DNA from: Candidatus Daviesbacteria bacterium RIFCSPLOWO2_01_FULL_39_12
Lineage (GTDB): Bacteria; Patescibacteriota; Microgenomatia; Daviesbacterales; UBA10151
Assembly: GCA_001776905.1 (NCBI GenBank)
Contig: MFDM01000014.1
Span: 8,075 to 42,762, forward strand
Reading direction: 5' to 3'
DNA: 34,688 nt
Shown: in pieces, positions 1-32,412 of the stretch
Numbering within the stretch: the stretch's first letter is position 1
Layout of the letters: every line of letters begins with the position of its first letter
Notes under the pieces: model-generated
Database searches by the model: none
What the model was told of the DNA's origin: nothing
Seen by the model: the letters and a program-made list of their open reading frames with translations, nothing else
Made by a program: the position numbers and the translations under genes

Positions 1-650
1 AAAAAGATTAGGGGGGTAATTATTTTTTTTGAAAACTTAAATTCTCTTCTAAAAATAATCAAGAAAGAGAGTATCAATAGTGGCATCAAAATTGCATGAG
101 AAAAATATGTATACATTGCTATTGCGAAAGAAAGAGATGCGAAATAAAGCCATCTAGCGTGTGTCTTTTTCTCTACAAATATAAGTAAAAAAGAAAAACC
201 TAAGAGCATGAAAAAAATCCCTGCCCCATTTTCAAAGCTTTTTCTGGAGAAAAATATCTCAAATGGAGCAATAGCAGTTAAAAATGCGCTGGCTAAAGCT
301 ATATTGGCATTTTTTAAAAGTTTTAAAACAAATATAAACACTGACGGGATGATTAGGCTGCCAAAGAGGGCTGCCGGAAGTCTAACAGTTGCCTCTCCCG
401 GACCGAAAACTAAATAAAAAATACTGGTTATATAAGTATAGAAAGGTGACTTGAAATCATTGACCGATTCAAAAATAGTTGGTAAGAAATTTCCATAGAT
501 ATCTTTTCCTGTCTGAGCAATAGAGATAGCGTCATAAATTTGTGATACTTCATCATGGTTTAAATGAACAGGATATTTATCCAATTGATAAAACCTCAAA
601 AATATCCCAAAAACTGTTAAAAGAAGCAGTGTATAAGTTAATTTATACAT
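1..650 (-). CDS. PMT/ArnT-like GT-C glycosyltransferase (N-terminal part, cut by window edge)
   Basis: The reverse strand from ATG at 650 stays open to base 1, giving about 216 residues; the C-terminus is outside the window. The protein starts with a membrane segment, then a loop with NHDEV (Asp33-Glu34) and a second loop with NDFKSP near residue 64. This pair of loop motifs is what the neighbouring PMT/ArnT-like proteins carry, and in that family the loop acidic residues are catalytic. Further hydrophobic segments follow. The expected role is transfer of a sugar from a polyprenyl-phosphate donor on the outer face of the membrane; donor and acceptor cannot be read. It overlaps the upstream gene by 13 bp, so it is the sixth gene of the operon that begins at 6489. 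No Shine-Dalgarno is seen. The family call is fairly sure; the specificity is unknown. Confidence 0.8.
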   Translation of the reverse strand, partial: MYKLTYTLLLLTVFGIFLRFYQLDKYPVHLNHDEVSQIYDAISIAQTGKDIYGNFLPTIFESVNDFKSPFYTYITSIFYLVFGPGEATVRLPAALFGSLIIPSVFIFVLKLLKNANIALASAFLTAIAPFEIFFSRKSFENGAGIFFMLLGFSFLLIFVEKKTHARWLYFASLSFAIAMYTYFSHAILMPLLILSFLIIFRREFKFSKKIITPLIF

Positions 651-2230
651 ATCTTGTTTAGTATAAGGTAAGCCGCATTTTTTTCATTGTTATCCTGGTA
701 TATTTTTGATACTTTAACTTCCAGCTTATTTTTAAGCTTATTAAAATCCCTTTCTCCTAAAAATAATGTATACTGCTCATTGCCACATTCATTAAAATTA
801 TTATCCGATTTAATAATTTTAATGTTACCCATATCATACTGAAGAAATCTGTAGGGTGTATCATTGTTCAGATATTGATTAGTCGGATTAATCGAGGTAT
901 ACCACCCAATAAGAGGAGTTATATCAGATATAATATTGTCTGAGATAGCTACAGCTGATTCTTGAGATAGCTTATCAACATCATCAATAATGGATTTTAC
1001 CCAATAAGGTCTTGTATCTGCTGCTTTTTTAATTTCCAGTGGGGTATTAAATAATGTAGTGATGATCTCAAAAATTACAAAAAAAATTATCAACGTTGAA
1101 ATTAATTTATTCATTTTTATAAAACCGATTGCAATAATGAGCGCCATAAATGGTAAGGTTAATGTTAAAAGCTCTAAATTTATCGATGGATAAAAAAACA
1201 AGGCAGGAAAGGTTAATATTAAAAATAGCCAAAATATTAAGCTTAATTTACTTCTTTCTTTAACTACAGAAGCAATGCCGATAAATAGCGGGATTATTAA
1301 TGCTTTTGGCCATGCACCCAAAGATTTAAAATTAAAAATTCCAAAGGTATCAAATTGTCCAAAAAATATTGATAAGTTAAAATGTGATATCCAGTGTAAG
1401 AAACCGACAGTTATAAAATGCAGCTTATTAAATAGTGCTCTTTCCCAAAATGGATTCCAACCTGATTGAATCCCCTCACCTCTAAGAGTATTTATTCCAT
1501 TACTGATTGTTAAGTTTGAAATAATAGAAAAATTATTTTCCAGCAACGATCTTTTTGCCTGAGAATTTGTCAAGAAAAGGAAAATTCCTATCAATATAAC
1601 TGCGGAACAAGCAACTAAAACCGTTATTTTCTTTGGTTTTGATTCCTCTTTTTGTAAAAGCAATGCGAGGCAAACATATGGCAAAAGAATAAAAAATGCT
1701 AATTTTGATGTAAGCACTATAAAAGTTAAAATCGATACTACCAATAATATATTAATACTCTTTTGAATTATTAAATAAAAAAGTATTGCAAAAAGGAGCG
1801 TCAGAACTATTGTTTCATTTGGTATTCTTGATAAAAAAATAAGCGGGGGAGAAAAGGCAATTAAAAATGCAGCTAAGAAAGCAGTTGACTGATTTAGACC
1901 AAATCTTTTTGAAATTTTGAAAACTACCGGAATGATAAATGTTCCAATAATAATAAAGGGTACCCTTGCTCCAAATTCTGATTTTCCAAATATTAGTTCT
2001 CCTAAAGCAGTGATATAGGAAACCACAGGAAACTGATAATCCTCTTGCGCGTTGAAAAAAAGCGGCATTTGTCTACCCAACTCATCTCTACCTTCTGTAG
2101 CCAACCTAAATCCACGATCAGCCAACCTTGCTTCTTCTGAAGTAGGAATAGGAAAATCAATAAGTATTACCCTAACTATGAATCCGAAAAATAGTATAAC
2201 TCCTAATATGGATATGCTATTTCTGTTCAT
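638..2230 (-). CDS. PMT/ArnT-like GT-C membrane protein with Glu-Glu in place of Asp-Glu
   Basis: This 530-residue polytopic protein has the layout of the ArnT/PMT-like proteins here: an N-terminal helix, a first extracytoplasmic loop of about 50 residues, many membrane helices and a C-terminal soluble tail of about 130 residues. The usual loop motif D-E is replaced by SEEA (Glu32-Glu33), while the rest of the loop (GRDELGRQMP, EDYQFP) still matches the paralogues. The change is conservative, so the protein may be active with altered chemistry or may be a non-catalytic relative. Its ATG overlaps the TGA of the upstream gene (ATGA at 2227-2230), and its end overlaps the next gene by 13 bp, indicating translational coupling. 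No Shine-Dalgarno precedes it. The fold family is likely; the substrate is unknown. Confidence 0.8.
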   Translation of the reverse strand: MNRNSISILGVILFFGFIVRVILIDFPIPTSEEARLADRGFRLATEGRDELGRQMPLFFNAQEDYQFPVVSYITALGELIFGKSEFGARVPFIIIGTFIIPVVFKISKRFGLNQSTAFLAAFLIAFSPPLIFLSRIPNETIVLTLLFAILFYLIIQKSINILLVVSILTFIVLTSKLAFFILLPYVCLALLLQKEESKPKKITVLVACSAVILIGIFLFLTNSQAKRSLLENNFSIISNLTISNGINTLRGEGIQSGWNPFWERALFNKLHFITVGFLHWISHFNLSIFFGQFDTFGIFNFKSLGAWPKALIIPLFIGIASVVKERSKLSLIFWLFLILTFPALFFYPSINLELLTLTLPFMALIIAIGFIKMNKLISTLIIFFVIFEIITTLFNTPLEIKKAADTRPYWVKSIIDDVDKLSQESAVAISDNIISDITPLIGWYTSINPTNQYLNNDTPYRFLQYDMGNIKIIKSDNNFNECGNEQYTLFLGERDFNKLKNKLEVKVSKIYQDNNEKNAAYLILNKICIN

Positions 2231-3708
2231 TTCTTATTTTGTTTAAATGATAAACTGTAGTAAGGCATGTTAAGATCTATTTTTTTAAATCCTTCCTTTT
2301 GGAGCAAATATAAATCAGATGAATATGAAAGCACCACTCCATATTCCGGAATAGCTCCTTCATGTTCCCATTTTTTTAGACCGGACGGAAAATAAACCAA
2401 TTCAAAAAACCTGGCACCTTCTCCTTCTTTACCAACCACTCCTCTTTGGATAACCGACTCCAAATTTAATTCTTTTGATTTTTCTGCTAGGTTTTTATAT
2501 GCTTGATACGCGCCAGAAGGAAAATATTCCCTTGCCCTCGAGGGATATTTAAACCACCAGTCATAAAGAAATTCTGAAAAATTTAACATTATTACTATCA
2601 GTGCTAAAAATGCGATTTTTCTAGAGTGGTTTCGAATAGATAAAACTGCTCTAAATCCTAAAGAGGAAATGACAATATAAGAAGGGATAAGCATCATCAA
2701 TCTAGAAGCTCTATGAACCGAATCTACTAAACTGTAAAGAAGAGGTGATAAAAAAAAGACAACCAAGATTAAATATAATATTGGTTTCTTGCTTTTAAAG
2801 ACTTGAAAGCAGCCTATTAGAAAAAGTGGTAAAGTTGCCAAAAGAAACATTCCATGCCGGCCCGTGGTATGAAAAGGAACACTGTCGCCCATAAGATATA
2901 GGAAAGTTAAATCAAATGAAGATAGAAAAGGAAGAAAAAAATCTTGATACGAATCCGAGATTAACGGTCTGGCACTTCCAAATATAGCACCGGGATAGGT
3001 ATATTTAGAGAAATATAATATCGCCATAAAAGGAAAAACTCCGGCAATAAATATTAAATTTGCATTTATAATTTTCCTTAAATTTTTAAAATTCAGAAAA
3101 CTTATGTAGACCAAAGTTAATAAAAAAAGTATAGGTAACACCAAACGCATACCATTATATGAGTAAAGACTTATTCCTAGGCAAAATGCAGAGAAAGCTA
3201 AATTTTTTAATTTTTTGTCCTTTTCATACTTAAAAAGAAACAGTAGCCAGGAAATTACAAAAGGTAGTAATGCTATATTTTCCAGTGCTAAATGAGATTG
3301 GATCATAATAATGGGAGTTGTAACAAACAGCAAAGCACCAAATAAAGCACTCTTAAAACCCAAAATCTCTCTTATTAGAACAAAAAGCAATATTAAGCTA
3401 ACCAGAGCAAAAATTACGCTGGCCAATCTCAATGTAAAAAAAGATGCTCCAAATAATTTAAAAATTAAAACAGTGGAGTAAAAAGTGATAGGCTGTTTCC
3501 AATCTGTTTGTTGAAATGTTGCAATAAATAGGGGTAAAAATCTTCCCTGTTCATCTTTTAGAGTTTTCGAAACGAGGATAGCATTATAACCTATTGAAGC
3601 TTCATCACTATTTATACCGGGAGGAATCTCTGTTAACTTGTAACTAAGAAGTAAGCCCGCGAAAATTAAAAAAAGGATGGATATAACAACAACTCGTAAC
3701 GTATAAAT
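2227..3708 (-). CDS. PMT/ArnT-like GT-C glycosyltransferase with an ATT start codon
   Basis: The gene should read 493 residues from ATT at 3708. A start at the first in-frame TTG (3432) would give only 401 residues and remove the functional loop. The 92 upstream codons are open and encode an N-terminal helix, then NSDEA (Asp35-Glu36) and TDWKQP, exactly the two loop motifs of the paralogues. There is no in-frame ATG, GTG or TTG between the stop at 3709-3711 and 3432. A perfect AAGGAGGTG lies 5 nt (measured from GGAGG) before ATT. The protein has about ten membrane helices and a soluble C-terminal segment, as expected for a polyprenyl-phosphate-sugar-dependent transferase. It directly abuts the stop codon of the GT4 gene, and its end overlaps the next gene (ATGA). 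Family and extension are firm; the exact start codon is strongly supported but unproven. Confidence 0.85.
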   Translation of the reverse strand: MYTLRVVVISILFLIFAGLLLSYKLTEIPPGINSDEASIGYNAILVSKTLKDEQGRFLPLFIATFQQTDWKQPITFYSTVLIFKLFGASFFTLRLASVIFALVSLILLFVLIREILGFKSALFGALLFVTTPIIMIQSHLALENIALLPFVISWLLFLFKYEKDKKLKNLAFSAFCLGISLYSYNGMRLVLPILFLLTLVYISFLNFKNLRKIINANLIFIAGVFPFMAILYFSKYTYPGAIFGSARPLISDSYQDFFLPFLSSFDLTFLYLMGDSVPFHTTGRHGMFLLATLPLFLIGCFQVFKSKKPILYLILVVFFLSPLLYSLVDSVHRASRLMMLIPSYIVISSLGFRAVLSIRNHSRKIAFLALIVIMLNFSEFLYDWWFKYPSRAREYFPSGAYQAYKNLAEKSKELNLESVIQRGVVGKEGEGARFFELVYFPSGLKKWEHEGAIPEYGVVLSYSSDLYLLQKEGFKKIDLNMPYYSLSFKQNKK

Positions 3709-4791
3709 TTACACCTCCTTAACTACTACATCTAAGATATTTTTGGCGAATCTATCTTTGCTAAAAATTTCAGATCTTTTTTTTGCTTTCATACTCATTC
3801 TTTTACCTAAACTTGGACGATTTATTAACTCCAGTGTGAAATTTTTAAGCTCCTCAATCTCGTTCCATAAATATCCATTCACTTTGTTTTCAATTATCTC
3901 TTTAGCCCCTCCTTTATTTACAACTACCGGAATGCAGCCTGATGCCATAGCCTCAACAATTGTTATTCCAAAATGCTCCATCTTTCTTGGGTCTGATTCC
4001 TGGTAACCTGATGCATGCCAATAAATTACCGACTCACCAAATAATTTTTTTAAATCCTCAAAAGGTAAATTAGGATGAATGGAGATTTTGTACTTATTTC
4101 CTTCGTGTCTTAACTCGTCTATATAGTCTTTATCTCCATCAGATGCAGCACCCACCAGATGGAGACTCCAGTCATTTAAATTATTCTCATCAACTAAAGA
4201 TTCGAAAACATTAATTAAAATTTGGTGTTTCTTATCCTTTAAGTAACCAAAGAACCTTCCCACCGAAATTATTTGTTTTTTCTTTTTCAAAGGTTTAAAA
4301 AAATCTGTGGAAACAGGGGGGTAAATAACTTTACCGTTCACAGGCCATTCTTTCTCTATATAATCTTGGGTAAATTGAGAGTTATAGATCGCCATATGCC
4401 AGGAAGACAGTTTAATTTTTCCCCAGAAAGAACGTGCAGTAAGGTTTGGAAAAGGCACTTGGAAGTGGAGAAAACTTTTTTTTGCTGTTGAGAAGAAAAT
4501 ACTTCCATCGGTTAGATAAAACAACCCGTCAAATTGTCTCAAAAAAAATAATCTTTCAAAAAAAGAGCTGTTTTTTCCAATCGGTGCTTTCAAAAAGTTT
4601 ATTTTAGTGAAACTTATATCATGAAGTTTTTGTATTTTTCGCTTAATATTTTCGGCGCCAATCTCTTCCAGATGGTTATCCAGTAATACAAATACCTCAT
4701 ACTTATCGGACAAAACTTCGGCAGCAGTTAAAATATATTTTTCTCCACCCCCCGCAGTGTCTAAGTAAGGACTGTAAAATGCAATCTTCAT
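3709..4791 (-). CDS. GT4-family glycosyltransferase
   Basis: This 360-residue soluble GT-B protein has a glycine-rich N-terminal loop (TAGGGEKY, residues 12-19) and a C-terminal nucleotide-sugar domain. That domain contains the E-x7-E signature (Glu272 and Glu280) followed by AMASGCIPVV and GGAKEII. The N-terminal GGGEKY resembles the ALG2/ALG11 branch, so a mannosyl- or similar hexosyltransferase is plausible, but the sugar cannot be assigned. It would act on the cytoplasmic face, adding a residue from a nucleotide sugar to a lipid-linked acceptor before export. Its ATG overlaps the TGA of the upstream GT2 gene (ATGA at 4788-4791). Its last codons form the Shine-Dalgarno of the next gene, tying the two together in translation. 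Length is normal for the family. Confidence 0.92.
   Translation of the reverse strand: MKIAFYSPYLDTAGGGEKYILTAAEVLSDKYEVFVLLDNHLEEIGAENIKRKIQKLHDISFTKINFLKAPIGKNSSFFERLFFLRQFDGLFYLTDGSIFFSTAKKSFLHFQVPFPNLTARSFWGKIKLSSWHMAIYNSQFTQDYIEKEWPVNGKVIYPPVSTDFFKPLKKKKQIISVGRFFGYLKDKKHQILINVFESLVDENNLNDWSLHLVGAASDGDKDYIDELRHEGNKYKISIHPNLPFEDLKKLFGESVIYWHASGYQESDPRKMEHFGITIVEAMASGCIPVVVNKGGAKEIIENKVNGYLWNEIEELKNFTLELINRPSLGKRMSMKAKKRSEIFSKDRFAKNILDVVVKEV
3712..3720 (-). promoter_or_regulatory. Strong Shine-Dalgarno for the ATT-started gene
   Basis: The minus strand reads AAGGAGGTG, followed by TAA (stop of the upstream GT4 gene) and then ATT. The core GGAGG is 5 nt from ATT, an ideal spacing, and it lies inside the last codons of the upstream gene. 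This is the strongest ribosome binding site noticed in the window, and it decides the start of the downstream gene. Confidence 0.85.
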
Positions 4792-6525: not shown

Positions 6526-8997
6526 ATGTCTTTAAGACCCATTATTAATAATCTCTTGGATAAATTAACAGCCTACACAAAATTACCCATATTCCCGGTC
6601 ATTTTGCTAATATTTATTATTACTGGAATCTATTATAAATTAGTTATTTTTGGAAAAATTCCTTTACCGGCTGATCTTTTAGTTGCCAGTTATTCTCCCT
6701 GGTTTGATTACTATAAATTACCTGTACAAAATCCACTAATATCTGACGCTTTCTCACAATTTTTCCTTTGGAAACATCTGGCAGTAGATATTTTTAAAAG
6801 TGGTAACTGGCCCTTATGGAATCCCTATTCATTTATGGGAACTCCACTTTTAGCAACTTACCATTCAGCTACTTTATATCCACCAAATCTCTTACTACTC
6901 CTTCCTAAATATTGGGGTTGGGGATTATTTATTTTTTCCCAAACATTAATTGCAGCTCTAACTTTAAATTTACTGCTCTCACTTTGGGTTAAATCTACCT
7001 TAGCACGAATAGCAGGTTCAATCATTTTTGCTTTGGGGGGACTGATGACTACCTGGTTGGAACTGGGAACTGCCGGGCATGCGATAGCCTGGCTTCCTCT
7101 AATAATTTATTCAATTGAGAAATTTTCTCAAACTACAAAATTTAGATTCTTTTTGCTTTTGATTTTCTCAATGGTTTTACTATTTTTAGCAGGAAATGCT
7201 CAAATTACTACATTTTCTTTTTTTATTGCCCTCTTATATGGACTGTTTTGTAATTTCAAGGTATCAAAAATTTCTCATCTAAATTTAATTTATCTCTTAT
7301 TAGCTTTCATACTTATGGCTGCTTTAGTATCACCACAACTTTTACCAAGTTTTGAACTTACAAGTAAGTCAATTCGCATAAATGAAGGTTATATTGGTGA
7401 ATTCAATTATGGACTTTTAACGACCAAAGATGCATTTAAGTTTTTCATGGCAGACTTTTGGGGTAATCCGGTCACTAGAAATTACTGGGGCTTTTTGAAT
7501 TATGCCGAAACAAGCGGTTTTGTCGGCAGCTTAACTTTACCTCTCTTACTTTTTTCTCTTGTTTACCTAAAGAAAAATGTAAAGGTGGCATTTTTTTTAT
7601 TGCTTTGTTTGACCTCTTTAATTCTCAGCTTTGATAATCCAATTTCTCAATTTTTATACAGAACAGAAATACCGTTACTTACCTCATCTTATGCCAGCAG
7701 AATGCTTTTTGTTAGCGTATTTTCTATTTCGATATTAGCTGCTTTTTCTTTAAACCAAATAATTCTCCGAAAACAAGAAGGTAAGTTAATAAAAACTGTT
7801 ATCTGGTCATGGGCAGCAGTGATTGGCTGCCTGCTTGGTTTACTCCTAACATATTATCAATTTAATCAAATTTATAAGAGCTCATATGCAAAGGATGTTT
7901 TGGCTACCTATCTTAGCCGTAGCGACTTAAATGTCCCTCTTCTAATAATTTCAGCCAAAAATTCTTTACCTGCATTTATTCAATACTCTCTTGTTTTATT
8001 AATTTTTTTGATAATAAAAATTTCCCCGTTAAAAAAATTTGATGAGAAAAAGCTGAAGTTCTTTTATATACTATTCACGCTTTTTATAATTTTAGATTTA
8101 AGCAGATACTTTTTAAAATTTAATCCATTTGTTGACCAAAATATCATTTTTCCTGAAGTTTCTGAGATTAAAATTCTTCAAGAAAAGGAGGGTGTTTTTA
8201 GGGTAGGCAGAGAGCATGCAGAAATTCTCCCCCCAAACACCTGGATTGCTTACAATCTACAAACCTATGAAGGCTACGATCCTCTTTATTTATTGGAATA
8301 TGGCGAATTTATGAATTTTTTAAACCTGGGGAAATTTGAGACTGGTGGCACAAGCAGATACGCGGAATTGTCCTCAAATTATAAATCCCCTTATTTAGAT
8401 ATAGCTAATGTCAGATACTTTATCGCCACTTTAAGAGATAGCACTAAACGCATTCCTGGCGAACATTTAGATAGTAAGTTTACAAAAGCCAATTATAAGT
8501 TAATTTATAAGGGTAGGTCATTTGCTCTGCTGGAAAATCCAAATGCTTTGGAAAGGGCTTATTTTACTCCTTCTATAGAATTTTTAAAAGAAAAGCAGGT
8601 TAAGAAAGTATTCGAAGAAGATAAAGAACATGACCCCAGAAAAAAAGTTTTCCTTTCTGAAAGTCTGAACTTAGATAAAGTGACTGGAAAAGGTATTGTG
8701 AAAATAGTTGATTATTCACCAAACAAAATAAAATTACAAACCTCTACTCAACAAAGTGAAGTATTGGTGCTGGCTGATAAATTTGATGATGGATGGGAAG
8801 TCACAGTTGACGGAAATCCCACCAAGATTGTCAAAGCTAATTTAATTTTCAGAGCAATAAAAGTTCCCCCGGGAAAACATAATATTGAATTTTATTATTG
8901 GCCAAAATCGTTTGATATAGGACTCAAATTATCTACGTTTACAATCATATTGTTAATTAGTTCGACTTTAATTTTCTTAAAATTAAAAAGATTTTAG
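6526..8997 (+). CDS. YfhO-family polytopic membrane protein
   Basis: This 823-residue protein is the only glycan-type gene on the plus strand. The N-terminal helix is followed by a long outside loop with PADLL, then PLWNPY and GTPLLA, hallmarks of the YfhO family (GT-C-like proteins linked in Gram-positives to glycosylation of lipoteichoic acid). About 12 further helices follow, then an extracytoplasmic beta-rich domain (roughly 690-790) containing DDGWEVTVDG and PPGKHNIEFYY, and a last helix before a short basic tail. Expected role: transfer of a lipid-linked sugar outside the membrane. It diverges from the GT2 operon (36 bp) and converges on the long operon (11 bp gap, no room for a classical terminator). 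No strong Shine-Dalgarno precedes the ATG. Family call good; substrate unknown. Confidence 0.85.
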   Translation: MSLRPIINNLLDKLTAYTKLPIFPVILLIFIITGIYYKLVIFGKIPLPADLLVASYSPWFDYYKLPVQNPLISDAFSQFFLWKHLAVDIFKSGNWPLWNPYSFMGTPLLATYHSATLYPPNLLLLLPKYWGWGLFIFSQTLIAALTLNLLLSLWVKSTLARIAGSIIFALGGLMTTWLELGTAGHAIAWLPLIIYSIEKFSQTTKFRFFLLLIFSMVLLFLAGNAQITTFSFFIALLYGLFCNFKVSKISHLNLIYLLLAFILMAALVSPQLLPSFELTSKSIRINEGYIGEFNYGLLTTKDAFKFFMADFWGNPVTRNYWGFLNYAETSGFVGSLTLPLLLFSLVYLKKNVKVAFFLLLCLTSLILSFDNPISQFLYRTEIPLLTSSYASRMLFVSVFSISILAAFSLNQIILRKQEGKLIKTVIWSWAAVIGCLLGLLLTYYQFNQIYKSSYAKDVLATYLSRSDLNVPLLIISAKNSLPAFIQYSLVLLIFLIIKISPLKKFDEKKLKFFYILFTLFIILDLSRYFLKFNPFVDQNIIFPEVSEIKILQEKEGVFRVGREHAEILPPNTWIAYNLQTYEGYDPLYLLEYGEFMNFLNLGKFETGGTSRYAELSSNYKSPYLDIANVRYFIATLRDSTKRIPGEHLDSKFTKANYKLIYKGRSFALLENPNALERAYFTPSIEFLKEKQVKKVFEEDKEHDPRKKVFLSESLNLDKVTGKGIVKIVDYSPNKIKLQTSTQQSEVLVLADKFDDGWEVTVDGNPTKIVKANLIFRAIKVPPGKHNIEFYYWPKSFDIGLKLSTFTIILLISSTLIFLKLKRF

Positions 8998-11795: not shown

Positions 11796-13412
11796 TCATT
11801 TTTGTAAATAGTGCATCAGGATGGCGTCTTTTTTGTCTGGGCCTTGTAAAATTTCATAATTTTCCAAGAATTTTGCATCAGTTGGCAACCCTACATATAA
11901 GACACTGCCATTTAGATTACTCAAAAAAGTCTTTATTAAAGTATCCGGGATATAACCTATATAGACATTATTAAATTTTTTAAAGTCATAATTATTCAAT
12001 AGAGTTCTATATTTATTTTGCGAAATCACCACTTCCGGGTCCTCTTTTGTATAAAGGGGATAAGCAAATTCTACAGCATCTATTCTATCTGCAATAATTA
12101 CGAAGTCATACCTATCTTTATTGATGACGGCAACCTCAGATGCCAATTTTCCCGGATAAGCCCAAAAGCTGGAGAACTGATTGGGAGCAAGAAAATAAAG
12201 TTTTTGAGCAAAAAATATAAATTGGATTGCAAATCCTATTGCTACTATCAAAAGTATTTTTTTCTTTCTGTTATCCAAAATTATACTCAGACCCAAAGTT
12301 GAAAAAAGCAGTAGCGGTGGTAACATGAGAGAGCTTCTTAAAGCGTGCGGCGAATCTACCAGGGCCGTAGCAAATGGCGCTAAAACAATCCATCCCAAAA
12401 GAAAAATTACTGTTCTCCTGTTACTTTTCCAAAAACTTACAAAACCAATAAATATTAAAATTATTTCCACAGCATAAATTTGTCCCATGGTGGCCATATT
12501 GTGCCGGGGATTTCTATCTCCGTGTAAAACCAAAAAATCTACAGAAAAATTTTGTAAATAGTCTTCTATAAATACCTTCATATATTCAACTCCCTTATTA
12601 TGAAAATATTTTGCAAATTCTTGCGGCAGGAGCGTTAACGTTCTTTCGTAATTTATTCTTTGTTCAATAGACTCTTTTAAATTTTGTTGAGAAAAAATGT
12701 TAATCTCAGCAAATCTTATCTCAGAACTGGCTATAAAAGTTTGACTCAGTGTGGTTATTCCTAAAAACAAAAATATTACTACTGCAGCAAAGAAATATTT
12801 TTTATCCTTATTGAGAAAACCTCTTCCCCACTGATACCAAACTAATAATGGGATAAATACAGGTAGGGTCAGCTTATAGGTGGGGTAGGTATGTAAGGTT
12901 AAACCGAAGCTTAAAGCAGAAAGTGGATAAAGAAAGCTTTTTTCTTTTGCCTTAATGAAACAGTAAATTCCTAAAAGAGCTAGTAATAGAGCCAGATGCG
13001 CCTCAAATCCTGCTCTAGACAGAGAAATATCCCAGGGAGAAACAGTAGTTACAGCTGCTGCTATCACTCCCACTCTTTTTGAGAAGATTTCCTTGCCTAA
13101 CAAATACATCAAAAATACTATACCTATTCCTGATAAAACAGATAATATCCTAACCCCTAAAGCAGTTGGGCCAAATAGGGCCACAAAAGGAATTGACAAA
13201 TAGACATAAGCAGCAGGTCTTCCTGCACCCATCTCAAAAGTTAAAGGAAATGAGTTTCCCAGTTGATCTTTACCTGTATGCAGCAAGGAGTTTGCATCCA
13301 GTATAATTGTTAACTCATCACCGTACAAAGAAGGGGGATTATTATTTATATTGACAACTCTTAAGATAAAGCCTATTAAGATGATAATTAACAATATTGC
13401 TTTAGTTTTCAT
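11796..13412 (-). CDS. PMT/ArnT-like GT-C glycosyltransferase
   Basis: This 538-residue polytopic protein has the first-loop motif YGDELT (Asp32-Glu33). The second loop carries GAGRPAAY in place of the more common DYKSP, keeping the aromatic/proline pattern. The central outside loop contains FSVDFLVLHGD followed by NPRH, a stretch I associate with the ArnT-like relatives common in CPR bacteria. A soluble tail of about 140 residues ends the protein. It should act as an outside, polyprenyl-phosphate-sugar-dependent transferase; the acceptor is unknown. Its ATG overlaps the TGA of the upstream gene (ATGA at 13409-13412). The gene fits the operon in length and composition. Confidence 0.88.
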   Translation of the reverse strand: MKTKAILLIIILIGFILRVVNINNNPPSLYGDELTIILDANSLLHTGKDQLGNSFPLTFEMGAGRPAAYVYLSIPFVALFGPTALGVRILSVLSGIGIVFLMYLLGKEIFSKRVGVIAAAVTTVSPWDISLSRAGFEAHLALLLALLGIYCFIKAKEKSFLYPLSALSFGLTLHTYPTYKLTLPVFIPLLVWYQWGRGFLNKDKKYFFAAVVIFLFLGITTLSQTFIASSEIRFAEINIFSQQNLKESIEQRINYERTLTLLPQEFAKYFHNKGVEYMKVFIEDYLQNFSVDFLVLHGDRNPRHNMATMGQIYAVEIILIFIGFVSFWKSNRRTVIFLLGWIVLAPFATALVDSPHALRSSLMLPPLLLFSTLGLSIILDNRKKKILLIVAIGFAIQFIFFAQKLYFLAPNQFSSFWAYPGKLASEVAVINKDRYDFVIIADRIDAVEFAYPLYTKEDPEVVISQNKYRTLLNNYDFKKFNNVYIGYIPDTLIKTFLSNLNGSVLYVGLPTDAKFLENYEILQGPDKKDAILMHYLQK

Positions 13413-15442
13413 CTTACTCTATAAATCCTTGAATCTTCATTTTCAAAGACTAAATCTGCGTTAATATTTTCAACCTCAGCAGCAAATCTTTCTTCCCATA
13501 CCAGATATATAAAATCTACGTCGTACTTTTTTAAAAAATCATTCATTTTATTTGAGTCTGTACTGTCGAAAGCTTCTTTCCTCTCATTTACCAATTCATC
13601 TACATCATACCCCATTATATTAATTTGTTCTTCATCAGCAATTAGAGTTTTTCTTGATGTGAATACTGACACATATCCGGTATCATACCAGGCGTAAATT
13701 GGTATCGGCGGGTTTTTATACATATCTTTTTCATATTTATTAAAGGGCGCAGTTAAAACTACTGCATCTCTCTCAGAATTTTGCTTTAAATAATTTAGAG
13801 CTTCCAACTCCCCATAAGAAATTTTAGATAATGCAGGATTAGAATAAAATTGCCATAAAAGTCCAACCTGTGTGGGGATTGCCAGAAATATAATTATTAT
13901 AACTGTTATAACCTTTAAGACCGTAGGTCGCAAGGACGTAGTCCTTATAGCTTTTATTTTGATCTTAATCAATAAATCTGTAACTGCTATTGCTGCCAAA
14001 AAACCAAACAGCAAAAGGAAGTACTGGTTAAATTGAATTGAATTCCAGGCTACTCCTTTTTGTAAAAACAAAACTGGAATCGTAAAAGAAGTTAGGGTAA
14101 TAATTAAAAAAAACAGATTGAAAGAATTTCTAAAAATATTTTCCCTAAGCTGTTTAAAGATCGTCCAAAATCCCAAAAACCTCATTCCTAAATTCCCAAA
14201 AAGAAATATTAAAAAGGCAGTTGTTTCCAACTGAACTACTCTCAAATTAGCATTCCATGTCCCTCTGCTTAAATAATGTTGGCGTCTTAGCTCTAAATCT
14301 AACCAGTTTAATCTATCTGTTGCCACTACCATTGTTCTGATATACCACCAAGGTTGCCAGATCAAAAAATCCTGGGAGCCGGCGCTGTTTGGAAAATAAA
14401 TGCCAAATGACAGTAAGAATGACGCTAAAAAAAGAAGCAGAGTTTTGAAAATTCTCTTAGCAAAGATTTCATAGATACCCACAATTAGTAATCCAAATAA
14501 TATTAATATCCCTCCGTATACCTTAAACCCAATTATAGAACCTCCTAATATGACGCTTAGAAAAAAATACTTATAATCATATGATTTAAAATATCTTAAT
14601 AGACAAAATAAGAAAGCAGTTAAAATAATAAAAGCTGAAGCGTGTGGTGGATTTCCTAAAACTGAATGTGTTTGTGATACCCAAAAAATTGATTCTCCGC
14701 CTAAACTGCCGTGTGTTGGAATATATAATAAATACCCAAAGCTTCCGGCAAAATAGGTAAAAAACATGGCCCAAATTCCTGCAATTTCACTCTTTTTCCA
14801 TTCCCTAACAAAAATAAATGATGTAAGACCTAAAAGAATAGAGAAAAGTGTTGGCATAAACCTAAAATAAATATCCAAATTAGAAAAGTAAAAAAGTCTT
14901 GACATTTCAGACATTAAAAGATCAACAAAGAAGTGATAATTTTGTAACTTCGCTCCGGCCAATTCCGGATTTTGAAATGGAAACTCATTTTTTTTCATCT
15001 GTTCCATTAAGCTCAAATGCCATACGCCGTCGTGACCATGTGAACTCCAAAAATAGACCCCATCTTTGTAAAGTAATCCTGACGGTGCATTTACAGCCAC
15101 TTGCGCAAAAATACCTATTAGAAAAACTAATAAAAAGAGATTTTTGCTATGTATATTTAGTTTGAATTGAAGGAATTCATTTTTAAATTTAATTAATACC
15201 AAAAGTCCAAAAATCGGAAAAGTCCACATTAAAAATCTTAAATTTATAAAGGCAAAAATATATGCAATCAGCGTAAAGATTACTAGTCCTAAAACTGTTG
15301 ATAATGTATACTTTTCTATTGAGTCTTTAACAATAAACTGAAACTTTTTTAGAATAAAAAAGCCCACTGTTGTAAAACAAATAAAATTAATAGCTAAAAA
15401 TAAAATTCCTAATAAAATTTGCAATATTGTACTTTGTATCAT
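13409..15442 (-). CDS. Polytopic membrane protein with HDGVWH motif, GT-C-like
   Basis: This 677-residue protein is a paralogue of the second half of the gene just upstream (roughly residues 500-1151 there). Shared landmarks are GHDGVWHLSL (135-144), QNYHFFVDLL (167-176) and a soluble C-terminal domain. The Asp/His-rich first outside loop followed by many helices is GT-C-like and suggests a catalytic Asp at the HDG, but I cannot name the family with confidence. About 12 membrane helices are visible. It overlaps its neighbours by ATGA at both ends. A pair of tiny palindromes (13919-13946) is embedded in the coding sequence between two helices, adding a short Thr/Ser/Arg-rich stretch. Likely role: a sugar transfer step outside the membrane together with its larger paralogue. 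Confidence 0.75.
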   Translation of the reverse strand: MIQSTILQILLGILFLAINFICFTTVGFFILKKFQFIVKDSIEKYTLSTVLGLVIFTLIAYIFAFINLRFLMWTFPIFGLLVLIKFKNEFLQFKLNIHSKNLFLLVFLIGIFAQVAVNAPSGLLYKDGVYFWSSHGHDGVWHLSLMEQMKKNEFPFQNPELAGAKLQNYHFFVDLLMSEMSRLFYFSNLDIYFRFMPTLFSILLGLTSFIFVREWKKSEIAGIWAMFFTYFAGSFGYLLYIPTHGSLGGESIFWVSQTHSVLGNPPHASAFIILTAFLFCLLRYFKSYDYKYFFLSVILGGSIIGFKVYGGILILFGLLIVGIYEIFAKRIFKTLLLFLASFLLSFGIYFPNSAGSQDFLIWQPWWYIRTMVVATDRLNWLDLELRRQHYLSRGTWNANLRVVQLETTAFLIFLFGNLGMRFLGFWTIFKQLRENIFRNSFNLFFLIITLTSFTIPVLFLQKGVAWNSIQFNQYFLLLFGFLAAIAVTDLLIKIKIKAIRTTSLRPTVLKVITVIIIIFLAIPTQVGLLWQFYSNPALSKISYGELEALNYLKQNSERDAVVLTAPFNKYEKDMYKNPPIPIYAWYDTGYVSVFTSRKTLIADEEQINIMGYDVDELVNERKEAFDSTDSNKMNDFLKKYDVDFIYLVWEERFAAEVENINADLVFENEDSRIYRVR
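13919..13946. repeat. Two adjacent short palindromes sharing a GTA centre, inside a coding region
   Basis: The plus strand shows GACC-GTA-GGTC (13919-13929), two bases, then AAGGAC-GTA-GTCCTT (13932-13946). Both stems are perfect and both have the same GTA centre. They fall in frame in the 677-residue membrane protein gene, encoding a polar linker (around RTTSLRPTV) between two hydrophobic segments. This looks like a small inserted palindromic element tolerated in a loop. Copies elsewhere in the genome cannot be seen from here. Confidence 0.65.
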
Positions 15443-18400
15443 CTATTTTCTACCCCATAAATTGAAATTTGTTTATTTTCAAAAATTAACTTAATTTTTT
15501 TTGTCTGCTCGTTAAATTTAACTTCAAAAATATTGGGGATATAGATATATTTAATTCTGTTTTTATCCAGAAATTCATCTTCACCAAGACCTGATTTTGC
15601 AAAAAAATCCTTTGATGCAACCAATCTCTTCTTATAGTCGGTTAATAAAATCTGGTTTTGTGAATCATCTTCCACATAAACCGACTTTTTGGAAAAAGCC
15701 CCCACATACGCCGTAGAATCATAAACAAAAAGAGGCCAGGGTTCCGCAAATCTTAGTTTCAATTTTTCATCGTATGGATATGTCAAAACTACTCCCTCGC
15801 TTTGTGATTCTAAAAACTGCAGAGCTTCTAATTCTTGAGTGGGAATGAAAGCATGTGGTTTGAAGTATAGATACCCGTTAGCAGTTGCCCAGGAATTTAT
15901 CGGAGTGATAATTAATATTACTGCAGTTACGGGTATAGCAATCAGTTTACTCCATTTGCAGAAGATATATAATAAAACAATTCCGCCACTTATTGCCGAG
16001 ATATATAGAAAATAATAAATGAACTGGATAGTATTCCAGGGGTTTCCTGCTTGTATAAATAAGATTGGAATAGTTAAGGAAGCAGCAGAAAATATCAACA
16101 TGAAAAGATACTCCCTTGTTTGAAAAATTGTTTTAAATTTCAACAGAGAAAACGCTCCGATGACTCTTGTCCCTAAATTTCCAACTATAAATACAAAAAG
16201 ACTCAGTACTTCAGCAGTAATGAATTTAAACCAGTTGCCCTGGCTAAATCCTGTTTCTCTGGCAAGAGCAAACCTCATCCACCCCACTCTATCAGGCGAA
16301 TCTATCATTGAATGTATGAACCAAAAAGGAGAAAAAATAATCAGCTTCTCACTTAAACTGAAATTTGAGAAAAACAAACTGGCTGATAATAATAAACTAA
16401 ATATAAAAATTATTAAATAATTTAAAGATCTTCTTAATATACCAACTATCAATAAACTAATTAATACTAGAAATCCGGCATAGGCTTTAAAAGAAATTAA
16501 GCTTCCGCAAAGAAGTATCAGAATCAATATATTTTTTTTATCAAATTTATTTAACTTAATAAGTAATTGTATTATGGCGATTACCAATACTAGCGAGATG
16601 GCAAATGGCGGATTTAAGTTGAATGAAATTGACTGATTTGCCCAAAAGTTAGACTCCCCCCCAAATCCTCTACCCTTTATTTGCTCAACAATCCATCCAA
16701 AACTGCCGGCAAAATAGATTAGGTACAAGGCAAAAATTATGGATAGTCTAGTTTGTAATTCTCCTACTTTTTTATTAAAAAGCTCCCATATTAAGTAGTA
16801 GCTACCTATGCCCAAAAGTAGCGAGAAAAGAATTGGATAAAATCTGAAAACTAAATCAGAAACCCCAATATCCAAAATATAACTTGTGGCAGCCACCAAA
16901 AGATCGTAAAAGTAATGATAATTCTTTAAAACTTCCCCTCCCAGAATTGGATTTTGAGGAGGAACACTTTTAATTAGCTGATTTATTAAACTAACATGCC
17001 AGACTCCATCGTGAGTATTAGGTCCCCAAAATCCCAAACCATAAGGGAAAAGTAAGCCGCTACTAAAGGTGGGTATGACTTGAAATATTGTACCTGCTAA
17101 AACTATGCCAATAATCAGTAAGTTTAACTTCTGTTTTAGGGGCAAAATAAGATTATCATGAAGCTGGTTCGTTATTTTTTTAACAGCTATAATTTTGGTA
17201 AGCGCTATAACCGCTATAGCAATATAGACATAAATTAGCTGTTTTAATCCTACAAGGCTGAATAGATAGAAAAGCAGTGTTAGTGAAACTAACCCTAGAC
17301 TCATTGCCAGAAAAATCTTTTGTAAGAGAGAACCCTGCTTATAAATTTTGTTTATTAATATGTATGGAACAGCGACTAAAACTAATAAAAAGCTGATAAA
17401 TTTAATCAATTTAAAAAGAGCTGATTGCAAAGACCATTTAAAAGATCCTTTCTCAATGGTAATTTGCATTTTCTCTTTACTAAGATTTTGCTCTGTTATA
17501 CCAAGTATCGTTGAATCAATCGATAAAGTTTTACCATCAACCCCTATATCTTTATCCAGTAACTCCAGACTTCTCTGATTGCCTGCCTCGTTAATATAAC
17601 TTAAAATAAAATTGTCTCCTTTTTTTGTAACTTTAAAATTTGTAATTTTCCCCTCATCAACAATCCATTTATGTCCAAAGCTGACTTCATCCAAAACTCT
17701 GGTGGCAGAAGTTGCAAAGTTAACCTGGTCACATCTTTTTAGAAGGCAGATTTCTTCTCCTCCCGTATACTGGCGGATATCACGAAATACCGAGCCATCT
17801 TTATTGTAAAACCATCCTGCCCGATAATTTAAATTCATAAACCAAACCACCCGCTCCTCTGTTCCTAGTGGATCTGCTGCATCAATAATATGAGGCGGAG
17901 AAAATTGGGGAAAATGCTCCATATACCAGTCGGCAAAATCCTTCATTGTGACAATTGAAAACTGCCCTTCATTCCTCTTTCTTATCAAAACATCAATTTG
18001 TCTTTTATACTCAGGTCCATATTTTGTCCAGGAATACGAATTCTCCAAGCCCACCACGACGTGAGCGAATTGATTAAATTTTTGTTTGGTATAAATATCT
18101 AAAATTGCGGAGAAATAATCTGTAGTTAAGTTATGATAATCTAAGTAATCGTTTGCCTGAATTGAGTATGTACTTTCCGAAACTCCGTTTCCATATCCAT
18201 TAACAGGATCCCTGGCAGCCCACTGCATCATCACCAGGGGCAGTTTATCTTCTATGTTTTTGGCAGGCTCTATGGCATTTCTTTTGGAAGGATAATAGGG
18301 GGTAGACCAAAACTGTCCCCAAATCTGATAGTTATCTGTTGAGTACTGATCTGCCACAATAAGTGCTGCGGTTATCCCATATTTTCTTTGCATGTATTCT

Positions 18401-18894
18401 AAGGAGTATCCGTCTATCCACCATGCTCCAACTGATGTTGGGTAATCCTCAAAAATTTCTTTAAACTTTTCAAAAGCTTCATCAATTAATTTTTCCCTCT
18501 CTTCCCTTTCATAACCAGTCAAAAAAGCGCTTCCTGCAAAATGCCAGCTTTCGGATTTATGGTAAGAAATACCGGCCTGATTTGCCCAAGTAGGTGTTAC
18601 TTCTAAAAATAATCCCTTCTCACTGTCAGGATATTTCTTTACTGTGGAAATAATTTCCGGATCAGCTAAGGCATCATATCTGAGCAGCCAAGTTGGTTGA
18701 ATATTAGACTGGTTAAGTAGCGCTATCTGCTCCAAAACGGTCTTTGCCGGTGTCTGATTTTTATCTTCCCAAAAATCTCCTCCTCTAACAGGATTAACTA
18801 CGGAAACAAACGCAGAATCTTGCGCCGAAACTGTAGCAGGTAATAAATAAAAAATTATCAGTGATAAAAAAAATACGAAAAAAAATTTATACAT
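15439..18894 (-). CDS. Secreted deacetylase/glycosidase-like domain fused to GT-C-like membrane protein
   Basis: This is a 1151-residue fusion. Residues 1-24 form a signal peptide ending VSA-QD. Residues about 27-400 form a soluble alpha/beta-barrel-like domain that I associate, with modest confidence, with the polysaccharide deacetylase/glycoside hydrolase barrels. Conserved-looking polar sites are LEVTP (Glu98), His112 and His118, WWIDGYS (Asp161) and GLENSYSW (Glu284). A beta-rich linker (about 400-490) leads into a polytopic half with THDGVWH (627-633) and KNYHYFYDLL (657-666), homologous end to end with the neighbouring 677-residue protein. The N-terminal domain must lie outside the membrane, beside the presumed active loop. 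It overlaps the flippase gene by 8 bp and the paralogue by 4 bp. Whether the barrel cleaves, deacetylates or only binds glycan is open. Confidence 0.75.
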   Translation of the reverse strand: MYKFFFVFFLSLIIFYLLPATVSAQDSAFVSVVNPVRGGDFWEDKNQTPAKTVLEQIALLNQSNIQPTWLLRYDALADPEIISTVKKYPDSEKGLFLEVTPTWANQAGISYHKSESWHFAGSAFLTGYEREEREKLIDEAFEKFKEIFEDYPTSVGAWWIDGYSLEYMQRKYGITAALIVADQYSTDNYQIWGQFWSTPYYPSKRNAIEPAKNIEDKLPLVMMQWAARDPVNGYGNGVSESTYSIQANDYLDYHNLTTDYFSAILDIYTKQKFNQFAHVVVGLENSYSWTKYGPEYKRQIDVLIRKRNEGQFSIVTMKDFADWYMEHFPQFSPPHIIDAADPLGTEERVVWFMNLNYRAGWFYNKDGSVFRDIRQYTGGEEICLLKRCDQVNFATSATRVLDEVSFGHKWIVDEGKITNFKVTKKGDNFILSYINEAGNQRSLELLDKDIGVDGKTLSIDSTILGITEQNLSKEKMQITIEKGSFKWSLQSALFKLIKFISFLLVLVAVPYILINKIYKQGSLLQKIFLAMSLGLVSLTLLFYLFSLVGLKQLIYVYIAIAVIALTKIIAVKKITNQLHDNLILPLKQKLNLLIIGIVLAGTIFQVIPTFSSGLLFPYGLGFWGPNTHDGVWHVSLINQLIKSVPPQNPILGGEVLKNYHYFYDLLVAATSYILDIGVSDLVFRFYPILFSLLLGIGSYYLIWELFNKKVGELQTRLSIIFALYLIYFAGSFGWIVEQIKGRGFGGESNFWANQSISFNLNPPFAISLVLVIAIIQLLIKLNKFDKKNILILILLCGSLISFKAYAGFLVLISLLIVGILRRSLNYLIIFIFSLLLSASLFFSNFSLSEKLIIFSPFWFIHSMIDSPDRVGWMRFALARETGFSQGNWFKFITAEVLSLFVFIVGNLGTRVIGAFSLLKFKTIFQTREYLFMLIFSAASLTIPILFIQAGNPWNTIQFIYYFLYISAISGGIVLLYIFCKWSKLIAIPVTAVILIITPINSWATANGYLYFKPHAFIPTQELEALQFLESQSEGVVLTYPYDEKLKLRFAEPWPLFVYDSTAYVGAFSKKSVYVEDDSQNQILLTDYKKRLVASKDFFAKSGLGEDEFLDKNRIKYIYIPNIFEVKFNEQTKKIKLIFENKQISIYGVENR

Positions 18895-21366: not shown

Positions 21367-22629
21367 TTAAGAGGAAACCGTCGATAATTTTTTAGGAAAA
21401 TATCTGTAGGTGAAATAGAAAGCCGCGCCAACAAATAATGTATGGAGGATGCTTCTGAAAAAATTAATGTCTAAACTAATTCCCATCAATTGCCATAAAT
21501 CCTTTCCCTGATAAACCTGGGGATTTATCGGGGCGAACAGTCCGATGGTCAGGGATTGGTCAAAGAAAAATAGTAACATAAACCAGCTGAAGAAGGCTGT
21601 TGTAGTCGCCAAAATATTTCTGAATCTACCTACGATTACCTCTATTATCAAAAATGGGGTTAACCATAGAAACCATTGCGGATGAGCATGAGTAAAAATA
21701 AAAAATAACAAAATTACCACAAAATAATATTGCCATAAATTCTTTTGATCTGAAATTTTAAGGCAAATTAGGTAGAAAAAAGTAAGAGCCGCCAAAAATA
21801 AGATGATACTCTCTCCGCCGGAAACCGGAATTTGAGGATAAAAACTCTTACTAAGCTGATTTGCCAAAAGAGCGTTACTCCTAAAACCAAAGGATGGAAG
21901 AAAGGGGAATATTGTCAAAAGATATGGGGCTAACCCTAAAGCTATTATTTTTGACCTAACATAGAATGATTTTGTTAACGACGCCAAAGGTATCAAGAAA
22001 AGAAAAGGGTAAATCTTAAAGGCCGCCCCAATGCCCAATAAAATGGCTGCTAAATAAATATTTCTTAAGCCGGACTCTTTTCCCCCTTTTACCATATACA
22101 AGGAAGCTATAGTGAAAAAGGTGGGAATAATATCATACTGACCCATCATGAATGTGGCATATAAGGTTAGCGGATTAAACATCCAGATGGTAAATGCCAA
22201 AAGTTTCGTTTTAAAATCATCAAAAAATTTAAAAAGCAAAACAGCACATCCCAGATCAAAAAATAGCAGGGGGAGTTTTAAGGCTAAAAGATGAAGAAAT
22301 AAAAACATATTGCCTAAGATGTTTCTTGTGTTGAATAAAAAATCACTATGTATTTGGGTTGGGGTGATGGCGGTAAATATTAAAGAGGATCCTCCCAAAA
22401 GAATATAGGTAAGCGGTGGGTAATTTAGGCTAAATGGTGGGAAATTTTTAATGATCTGATCATCAAGGGGCAAGGTATATAAATAATCATAAAAATTTAA
22501 CAGATGTCCCCCTTTTAAAATCTGGCCCGCCAGATCAAACACCTGTATATCGGGATGAAAGGTGAAACTCGATAAAATCAACCTTAATATTAATCCTGCT
22601 GCTAAAATTATCCATATATATTTACTCAT
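21367..22629 (-). CDS. GT87-like/ALG6-like GT-C mannosyltransferase-type protein
   Basis: This 420-residue polytopic protein has FHPDIQVF (Asp27) in the first outside loop, NYPPLTY (69-75) before the second helix, and a MGQYDIIPTFF signature with KIYPF downstream. This combination is typical of the GT87/DUF2029 and PIG-M/ALG6-like GT-C enzymes, which use polyprenyl-phosphate mannose or glucose outside the membrane. About ten helices are visible. It lacks the long soluble C-terminal domain of its PTPS-related neighbours. AGAGGTGG lies about 10 nt before the ATG, a usable Shine-Dalgarno, and its start overlaps the upstream stop (ATGA at 22626-22629). The GT-C class is likely; the exact CAZy family is my best guess. 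Confidence 0.8.
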   Translation of the reverse strand: MSKYIWIILAAGLILRLILSSFTFHPDIQVFDLAGQILKGGHLLNFYDYLYTLPLDDQIIKNFPPFSLNYPPLTYILLGGSSLIFTAITPTQIHSDFLFNTRNILGNMFLFLHLLALKLPLLFFDLGCAVLLFKFFDDFKTKLLAFTIWMFNPLTLYATFMMGQYDIIPTFFTIASLYMVKGGKESGLRNIYLAAILLGIGAAFKIYPFLFLIPLASLTKSFYVRSKIIALGLAPYLLTIFPFLPSFGFRSNALLANQLSKSFYPQIPVSGGESIILFLAALTFFYLICLKISDQKNLWQYYFVVILLFFIFTHAHPQWFLWLTPFLIIEVIVGRFRNILATTTAFFSWFMLLFFFDQSLTIGLFAPINPQVYQGKDLWQLMGISLDINFFRSILHTLFVGAAFYFTYRYFPKKLSTVSS

Positions 22630-31461: not shown

Positions 31462-32298
31462 TTATTGTAACTTTTTAGGTGTGTTTTTTCCTGGTAGCTT
31501 AAAATTTTCCCCTGAAATAACTTTTTTACCACTTCTTTGTTCCAATTCCAGTCTGGCATTTTTAGCAATCCGTCCGCCTTTTTTGGCCGGAATTTTATTT
31601 TTTTCTAAACCTTTTGTTTGCATATTTTCGGCAATCTGCCTGGTTGATAATTCTGCCAGTGCCGTAAAGATGAGTTCTGCCTCTGTCATATGGTCACGTA
31701 GGTTCTCTGTTTTTAACCCTTTTAGGTTCCTATGGTCCTTAACTGATAAATCACTCCATTCCTCATGAATAATATTTGTCAAAATTGCATACTCATTCTC
31801 TTTCTTGACGTCATGGGTTTTCCAGTAATCCGTAAGCTTATTTCTGGTTTCCTGACCCATCATTCTCTGCTGAATCCATTTCTGGCTTCTGCCTAATCTT
31901 TGCCAGTTTATTCTTCCTCTATTTATGGATTTTTCCGGGTCAGATACTTCTTGTATTCTTTCATAACCCACTTTTGCCAACCAAAGCTTTATCGGCTCGG
32001 CCTTTTTACTTGGAATAGATTGGATAATCCTAAATAAGTGCTCCGGAGTTCCTGCTAACATTTTTCTATTTTTTCCGGTTTCCGAAGCCATTTCTACCTG
32101 GGGACAATTTGTCCCTATGTAGTGGCCAAGTTCAGAATCTCTTTTTCTCAGTTTTTTCAAATAGTCAGTTGGGTTAGCGCTTTCAGTAAGTGCGGAAATA
32201 ATATCCACTACAGAAAAATACCACTTCTGCTTTTTTTCATCCCAATGACGGCGGATTTTTTTAGTTTGGAAAGCAATAATTTGATTATCATTTTTCAT
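31462..32298 (-). CDS. Bro-N / DinD-like protein (prophage antirepressor type)
   Basis: This 278-residue protein has a Bro-N-type N-terminal domain (about 1-110: IRRHWDEKKQKWYFSVVDII, LAGTPEHLFRIIQ). A C-terminal half follows with KGLKTENLRDHMTEAELIF, EIA-like RQIAENMQTKGLEKN and GGRIAKNARLELE. The latter matches what I recall of the DinD C-terminal region. Bro-N domains bind DNA and occur in phage antirepressors; DinD is a LexA-regulated protein reported to inhibit RecA filaments in E. coli. The C-terminal part ends with basic residues (GKNTPKKLQ). It lies 114 nt after the restriction-modification gene and has its own promoter candidate. It may be a mobile-element remnant or a regulator of the neighbouring genes. 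The domain call is good; the role is open. Confidence 0.8.
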   Translation of the reverse strand: MKNDNQIIAFQTKKIRRHWDEKKQKWYFSVVDIISALTESANPTDYLKKLRKRDSELGHYIGTNCPQVEMASETGKNRKMLAGTPEHLFRIIQSIPSKKAEPIKLWLAKVGYERIQEVSDPEKSINRGRINWQRLGRSQKWIQQRMMGQETRNKLTDYWKTHDVKKENEYAILTNIIHEEWSDLSVKDHRNLKGLKTENLRDHMTEAELIFTALAELSTRQIAENMQTKGLEKNKIPAKKGGRIAKNARLELEQRSGKKVISGENFKLPGKNTPKKLQ

Positions 32299-32308
32299 AA
32301 CAAACTCT

Positions 32309-32338
32309 ACTTTAAACCAAAAATTACCCGAAAGTCAA
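32309..32338 (-). promoter_or_regulatory. Candidate promoter of the Bro-N/DinD-like gene
   Basis: The minus strand shows TTGACT (32333-32338), an 18-nt spacer and TAAAGT (32309-32314), 10 nt before the ATG at 32298. The -35 matches 5 of 6 and the -10 matches 4 of 6 consensus bases. The leader would be only a few bases. The remaining bases of the 114-nt gap (32299-32412) show nothing further. Confidence 0.5.
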
Positions 32339-32412
32339 GATACGAGGGCTATTTTGAATTTTCTTCCACAATTGCAATTTTCATAATTTCCCTCCGAAGA
32401 TTTACAACCACA

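Follow-up and report, generated by a model that had tools for sequence, protein, structure and literature searches.

The IF3 gene infC is known to begin with AUU, AUA, AUC or CUG, and these conserved start codons serve IF3 autocontrol. The glycosyltransferase gene described here is similar to infC in that a near-cognate start codon lies behind a strong Shine-Dalgarno (SD) sequence, and such an infC is present both in the same genome (CTG) and in its family; it differs in that the infC start is conserved and under IF3 autocontrol, while the ATT of the glycosyltransferase gene appears lineage-specific. In S. aureus, cvfC1 (AUU) and ccpN (AUA) likewise combine a near-cognate start with an extended SD sequence, and for both the start was established with ribosome profiling and reporter assays and is conserved among relatives (PMC13009471). 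The E. coli gene pcnB, as the work of Binns and Masters 2002 is cited in that paper, provides an AUU start outside infC, for which a translational limitation was shown by experiment (PMC13009471). In contrast to these genes, the ATT start is predicted from the sequence. Streptomyces sigR (GTC) is a further rare start that was overlooked by automated annotation, but its IF3 dependence has been shown, its codon is GTC, and its start was misannotated upstream, whereas the ATT gene is truncated (PMC5472188). The gene described here is most likely one more case of a natural AUU start, of which a small number is already known.

The open frame and the encoded glycosyltransferase

The window, which denotes the whole stretch of 34,688 nucleotides analysed here (G000:C14:8075-42762), belongs to a source assembly of 1.0 Mb in 34 contigs. 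Its minus strand, read directly from 5' to 3', carries TTAAGGAGGTG-TAA-ATT-TAT-ACG-TTA, in which the SD sequence TTAAGGAGGTG (3712-3722, minus strand) lies within the codons for the C-terminal K-E-V residues of the upstream gene product, with its GGAGG core 5 nt before the ATT. The TAA stop of the upstream glycosyltransferase (3709-3711, minus strand) abuts the proposed ATT start codon (3706-3708, minus strand) in the same frame, and the ATT is located near the aligned start of the orthologues. From the ATT, the frame stays open for 493 codons and reaches 2227. No canonical start is present in frame across the conserved N-terminus, and the earliest ATG, GTG or TTG is the TTG at codon 93 (3430-3432, minus strand), where the ORF lister begins the gene to give a 401-aa product. 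The earlier note had placed the ATT at 3706-3708, immediately 3' of a stop codon and behind the SD sequence, had read 92 open codons upstream of TTG 3432 free of ATG, GTG and TTG, and had expected automated calling to shorten the gene; direct reading bears out each of these points, and the ORF lister indeed drops 92 residues.

The gene (2227-3708, minus strand; 493 codons plus stop) encodes a PMT_2-family glycosyltransferase of GT-C type, which matches the PF13231 profile at 9.7e-14 (52.3 bits against a cut-off of 26.1) and has orthologues with up to 49% identity and E-values down to 1e-147 in protein searches. These searches covered 57 relatives and 45 genomes of the family, among which no genome of the same genus was found. 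Residues 11-92 of the ATT frame can be aligned to the orthologues, and 14 sequences, each aligned from its own start, share D35, E36, D52, P59, W70 and P73 without exception. By this homology, the 92 codons before TTG 3432 are genuine coding sequence, and the rare ATT start suggested by the earlier note is supported by both the N-terminal homology and the strong SD sequence.

The invariant acidic pair D35-E36 (codons at 3601-3606, minus strand), identified by alignment and comparison with ArnT, would be the active-site pair of the GT-C type, located in the loop that follows TM1. In a published alignment, the two acidic residues between TM1 and TM2 correspond to ArnT D55/E56, positions described there as critical for catalysis (PMC7801869), and the aspartates of the first loop were also reported to be required in GtlB (PMC5836110). 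The PF13231 match and the DE pair after TM1 are thus shared with ArnT-like PMT_2 enzymes, with the GT-C assignment made here from sequence and the GT-C fold a predicted one; a profile search of PDB sequences with the glycosyltransferase returned no match. The earlier note went too far in assigning NSDEA and TDWKQP loops to all paralogues, since E36 is the sole invariant residue of the NSDEA loop across the paralogues in the window and the variants SEEA, IDEV, GDEL and ADEA occur. A start at TTG 3432 would remove residues 1-92, including TM1 and the GT-C active-site loop. Because TTG 3432 is the first canonical start, standard callers would cut off the active site, which serves as a warning that gene callers truncate such enzymes through their catalytic region.

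The Shine-Dalgarno sequence and the rearranged junction

The 3' end of the genome's own 16S rRNA is GGATCACCTCCTTTCTGGAG, and the duplex predicted between this tail and the ATT leader has an energy of -14.4 kcal/mol, ranking second among 327 starts. The 326 canonical starts used for comparison, each chosen in a way that favoured a strong SD sequence, have a median of -3.15 kcal/mol, and just one of them is at least as strong as the ATT leader, while the next-best duplex in the surrounding glycan cluster reaches -10.6. Regarding the spacing of 5 nt given by the earlier note, the figure stands when counted from the GGAGG core, whereas 3 nt (the TAA) lie between the end of AAGGAGGTG and the ATT; among strong SD sequences of the same genome, a spacing of 5 nt is one of the shorter ones. 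In the 2 x 975 kb of the two strands, the motif AAGGAGGTG was counted 27 times, with 11 occurrences shortly before a canonical ORF start, and simple arithmetic from the 27 occurrences puts the chance of a match within the right few positions at about 1e-4. No canonical start that this SD sequence might serve lies nearby in any frame. A scan of 975 kb for strong SD sequences which have a long open frame and no canonical client picked out the ATT gene, and this SD-based scan revealed no second long frame of the same arrangement on a near-cognate codon. The mRNA folding around the ATT start is not unusual (z = 0.10). Generally, stronger SD sequences tend to accompany weaker start codons (PMC5622118).

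The starts of 17 orthologous genes were compared across 16 genomes. In 15 of these genes an ATG lies close to the position aligned with the ATT, and the remaining two offer GTG or TTG options only. The ATG of most orthologues sits within the tail of the upstream gene. The alignment of orthologues proposed in the earlier note thus yields mostly ATG starts together with conservation of the first 30-90 residues, so that a different start codon goes along with a conserved N-terminus and the suggested refutation, another codon and an unconserved N-terminus, does not apply. An infC-type conservation of the near-cognate start was not seen among the 17 orthologous genes, and the ATT is, as far as these alignments indicate, lineage-specific among the genomes compared.

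The neighbourhood of the gene has also changed. The upstream glycosyltransferase (Glycos_transf_1 by Pfam, 360 aa; 3709-4791, minus strand) has orthologues that lie upstream in relatives as well, and the downstream gene (638-2230, minus strand) is a PMT_2 paralogue by Pfam, which the ORF list starts at an ATG with a 4-nt overlap. In several relatives, a gene of about 380 aa separates the upstream glycosyltransferase orthologue from the GT-C gene, and the end of this intervening gene usually overlaps the GT-C start; in G012, a different ORF of 267 aa lies between the two glycosyltransferase genes. In the source genome the two glycosyltransferases abut, and the orthologue of the intervening gene, a 420-aa membrane protein with 43-49% identity by tblastn, is found at 21367-22629 (minus strand) instead. 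Since the intervening gene is located elsewhere here, the ATT marks a rearranged junction, which is probably derived. As the tail of that gene overlaps the GT-C start in relatives, the old ATG probably left with it when the gene departed from the junction; we infer that this rearrangement removed the overlapping ATG and left the ATT, at a divergence where the breakpoints are unalignable. The case suggests that rearrangement can leave a near-cognate start which a strong SD sequence may compensate for.

Near-cognate infC starts in the genome and its family

Classic IF3 autocontrol is associated with near-cognate infC starts, such as ATT in E. coli and ATC in Streptomyces (PMC5472188). In the source genome, the homology census described below located infC with a CTG start behind GGGAGGAAGG (L054; G000:C2:8456-9035, minus strand). 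The locus was read in 17 family genomes (L054 and the relatives L140, L142-L145, L150-L153, L156-L160, L163 and L165), and the start, taken by best SD, is ATA in 11, CTG in three, ATT in two and TTG in one, with SD energies from -8.5 to -11.8 kcal/mol. In G007 and G012, ATA and ATT are adjacent and either could be the start. Since infC begins with ATA, CTG or ATT in 16 of the 17 family genomes, the ribosomes of this lineage evidently use such start codons, as judged from the reading of these loci. This family-wide pattern suggests that IF3 autocontrol is conserved in reduced candidate-phylum genomes; elsewhere in the class, beyond the family, the infC starts give a mixed picture.

Alternative readings and the proposed initiation at AUU

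The ATT could be explained by a base-call or assembly error in an ordinary gene whose true codon is ATG (or GTG or TTG). The orthologues mostly carry ATG, a single base (T for G) would suffice, and the assembly is a draft with N gaps. A homology census covered 975 kb of the source genome and 800 kb of the relative G012 and collected homology-supported frames aligning well upstream of the first canonical start, with SD sequences not used. After inspection, two genes without a canonical start were left in the 975 kb, namely the ATT glycosyltransferase and infC (CTG), and the reverse census in G012 left infC alone by the same inspection. Other apparent non-canonical starts could be traced to antisense ORFs, ORFs in rRNA regions, N gaps or loose alignment ends, and apparent split genes were scaffold gaps, neighbours matching a gene fused in G012, or antisense ORFs. 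No stop-creating error was seen in 388 well-supported genes. Of the single changes possible in these genes, 57,174 create a stop and 2,716 abolish an ATG start, a ratio of 21 to 1. With not one stop break observed, for which the 95% upper limit is 3, the expected number of false start losses is at most about 0.14. In addition, a random error would strike a gene with such a strong SD sequence in <1% of cases, and length errors in AAA or TTT runs would add no G and hence make no start. Given the rank of the SD sequence and the lack of stop-creating errors, a miscall of the ATT, or an assembly error at this codon, is unlikely.

A recent natural start loss, in which the ATT is real but its translation is too weak to be of consequence, so that the gene is a nascent pseudogene or yields a truncated product from TTG 3432, is favoured by the rearranged junction and by the lineage-specific ATT. 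However, the 493-codon frame is intact and keeps every invariant residue, the very strong SD sequence is of the kind expected for a weak start in use, and the product from TTG 3432 would be devoid of TM1 and D35-E36, which makes this explanation unlikely. The two genes also share a frame with TAA 3709-3711 alone between them, and read-through of this stop would give one fused protein of both glycosyltransferases. The SD sequence would then have no task, and the chance of about 1e-4 for the AAGGAGGTG match argues against such a fusion; moreover, relatives carry two separate genes that are usually non-adjacent, with an upstream protein that terminates at a similar position. Read-through is therefore very unlikely indeed.

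The best explanation, which we consider probable, is that the gene is translated from AUU 3706-3708, held by the SD sequence, to yield the full GT-C enzyme. A 30S subunit, either newly bound or left from termination at the abutting UAA, would be positioned at the start and held there by an SD/anti-SD duplex that is almost complete and lies 5 nt upstream, and AUU would serve the initiator tRNA as a near-cognate start codon. This would yield all 493 residues of the glycosyltransferase, including TM1 and the D35-E36 loop, at a lower rate than from AUG. Termination-reinitiation has been reported to require short distances (PMC10666635), such as the abutting UAA-AUU here. We infer the use of the codon itself, and the ATT is most likely a true, weak, SD-driven and stop-coupled AUU start.

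Previous work in S. aureus showed that AUU and AUA starts with extended SD sequences reach about 10% of the AUG level, and up to 30% once (PMC13009471), and low expression from the ATT would fit these published measurements. Sensitivity of the ATT gene to IF3 is plausible by analogy, because the lineage keeps near-cognate starts on infC. The further idea that strong-SD near-cognate starts might form a small IF3-sensed set beyond infC, including a surface-glycan enzyme, is doubtful; if it were true, the glycosylation of the cell envelope in this candidate-phylum bacterium would track the balance between IF3 and ribosomes.

The window as a whole contains a glycan cluster (638-29148), in which membrane proteins of the PMT_2, PTPS_related and YfhO types abound and a polysaccharide flippase is also encoded; its genes include overlapping ones and stand mostly on one strand. 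Two large proteins of this cluster (677 and 1151 aa; 13409-18894, minus strand) have no Pfam match. The window begins just past an N run (G000:C14 about 8060-8074) inside a further PMT-like gene, whose split appearance beside C6 and A8 runs reflects only a scaffold gap. At the cluster edge, a BRO-N domain gene adjoins an Eco57I-like restriction-modification methylase (31462-34566, minus strand).
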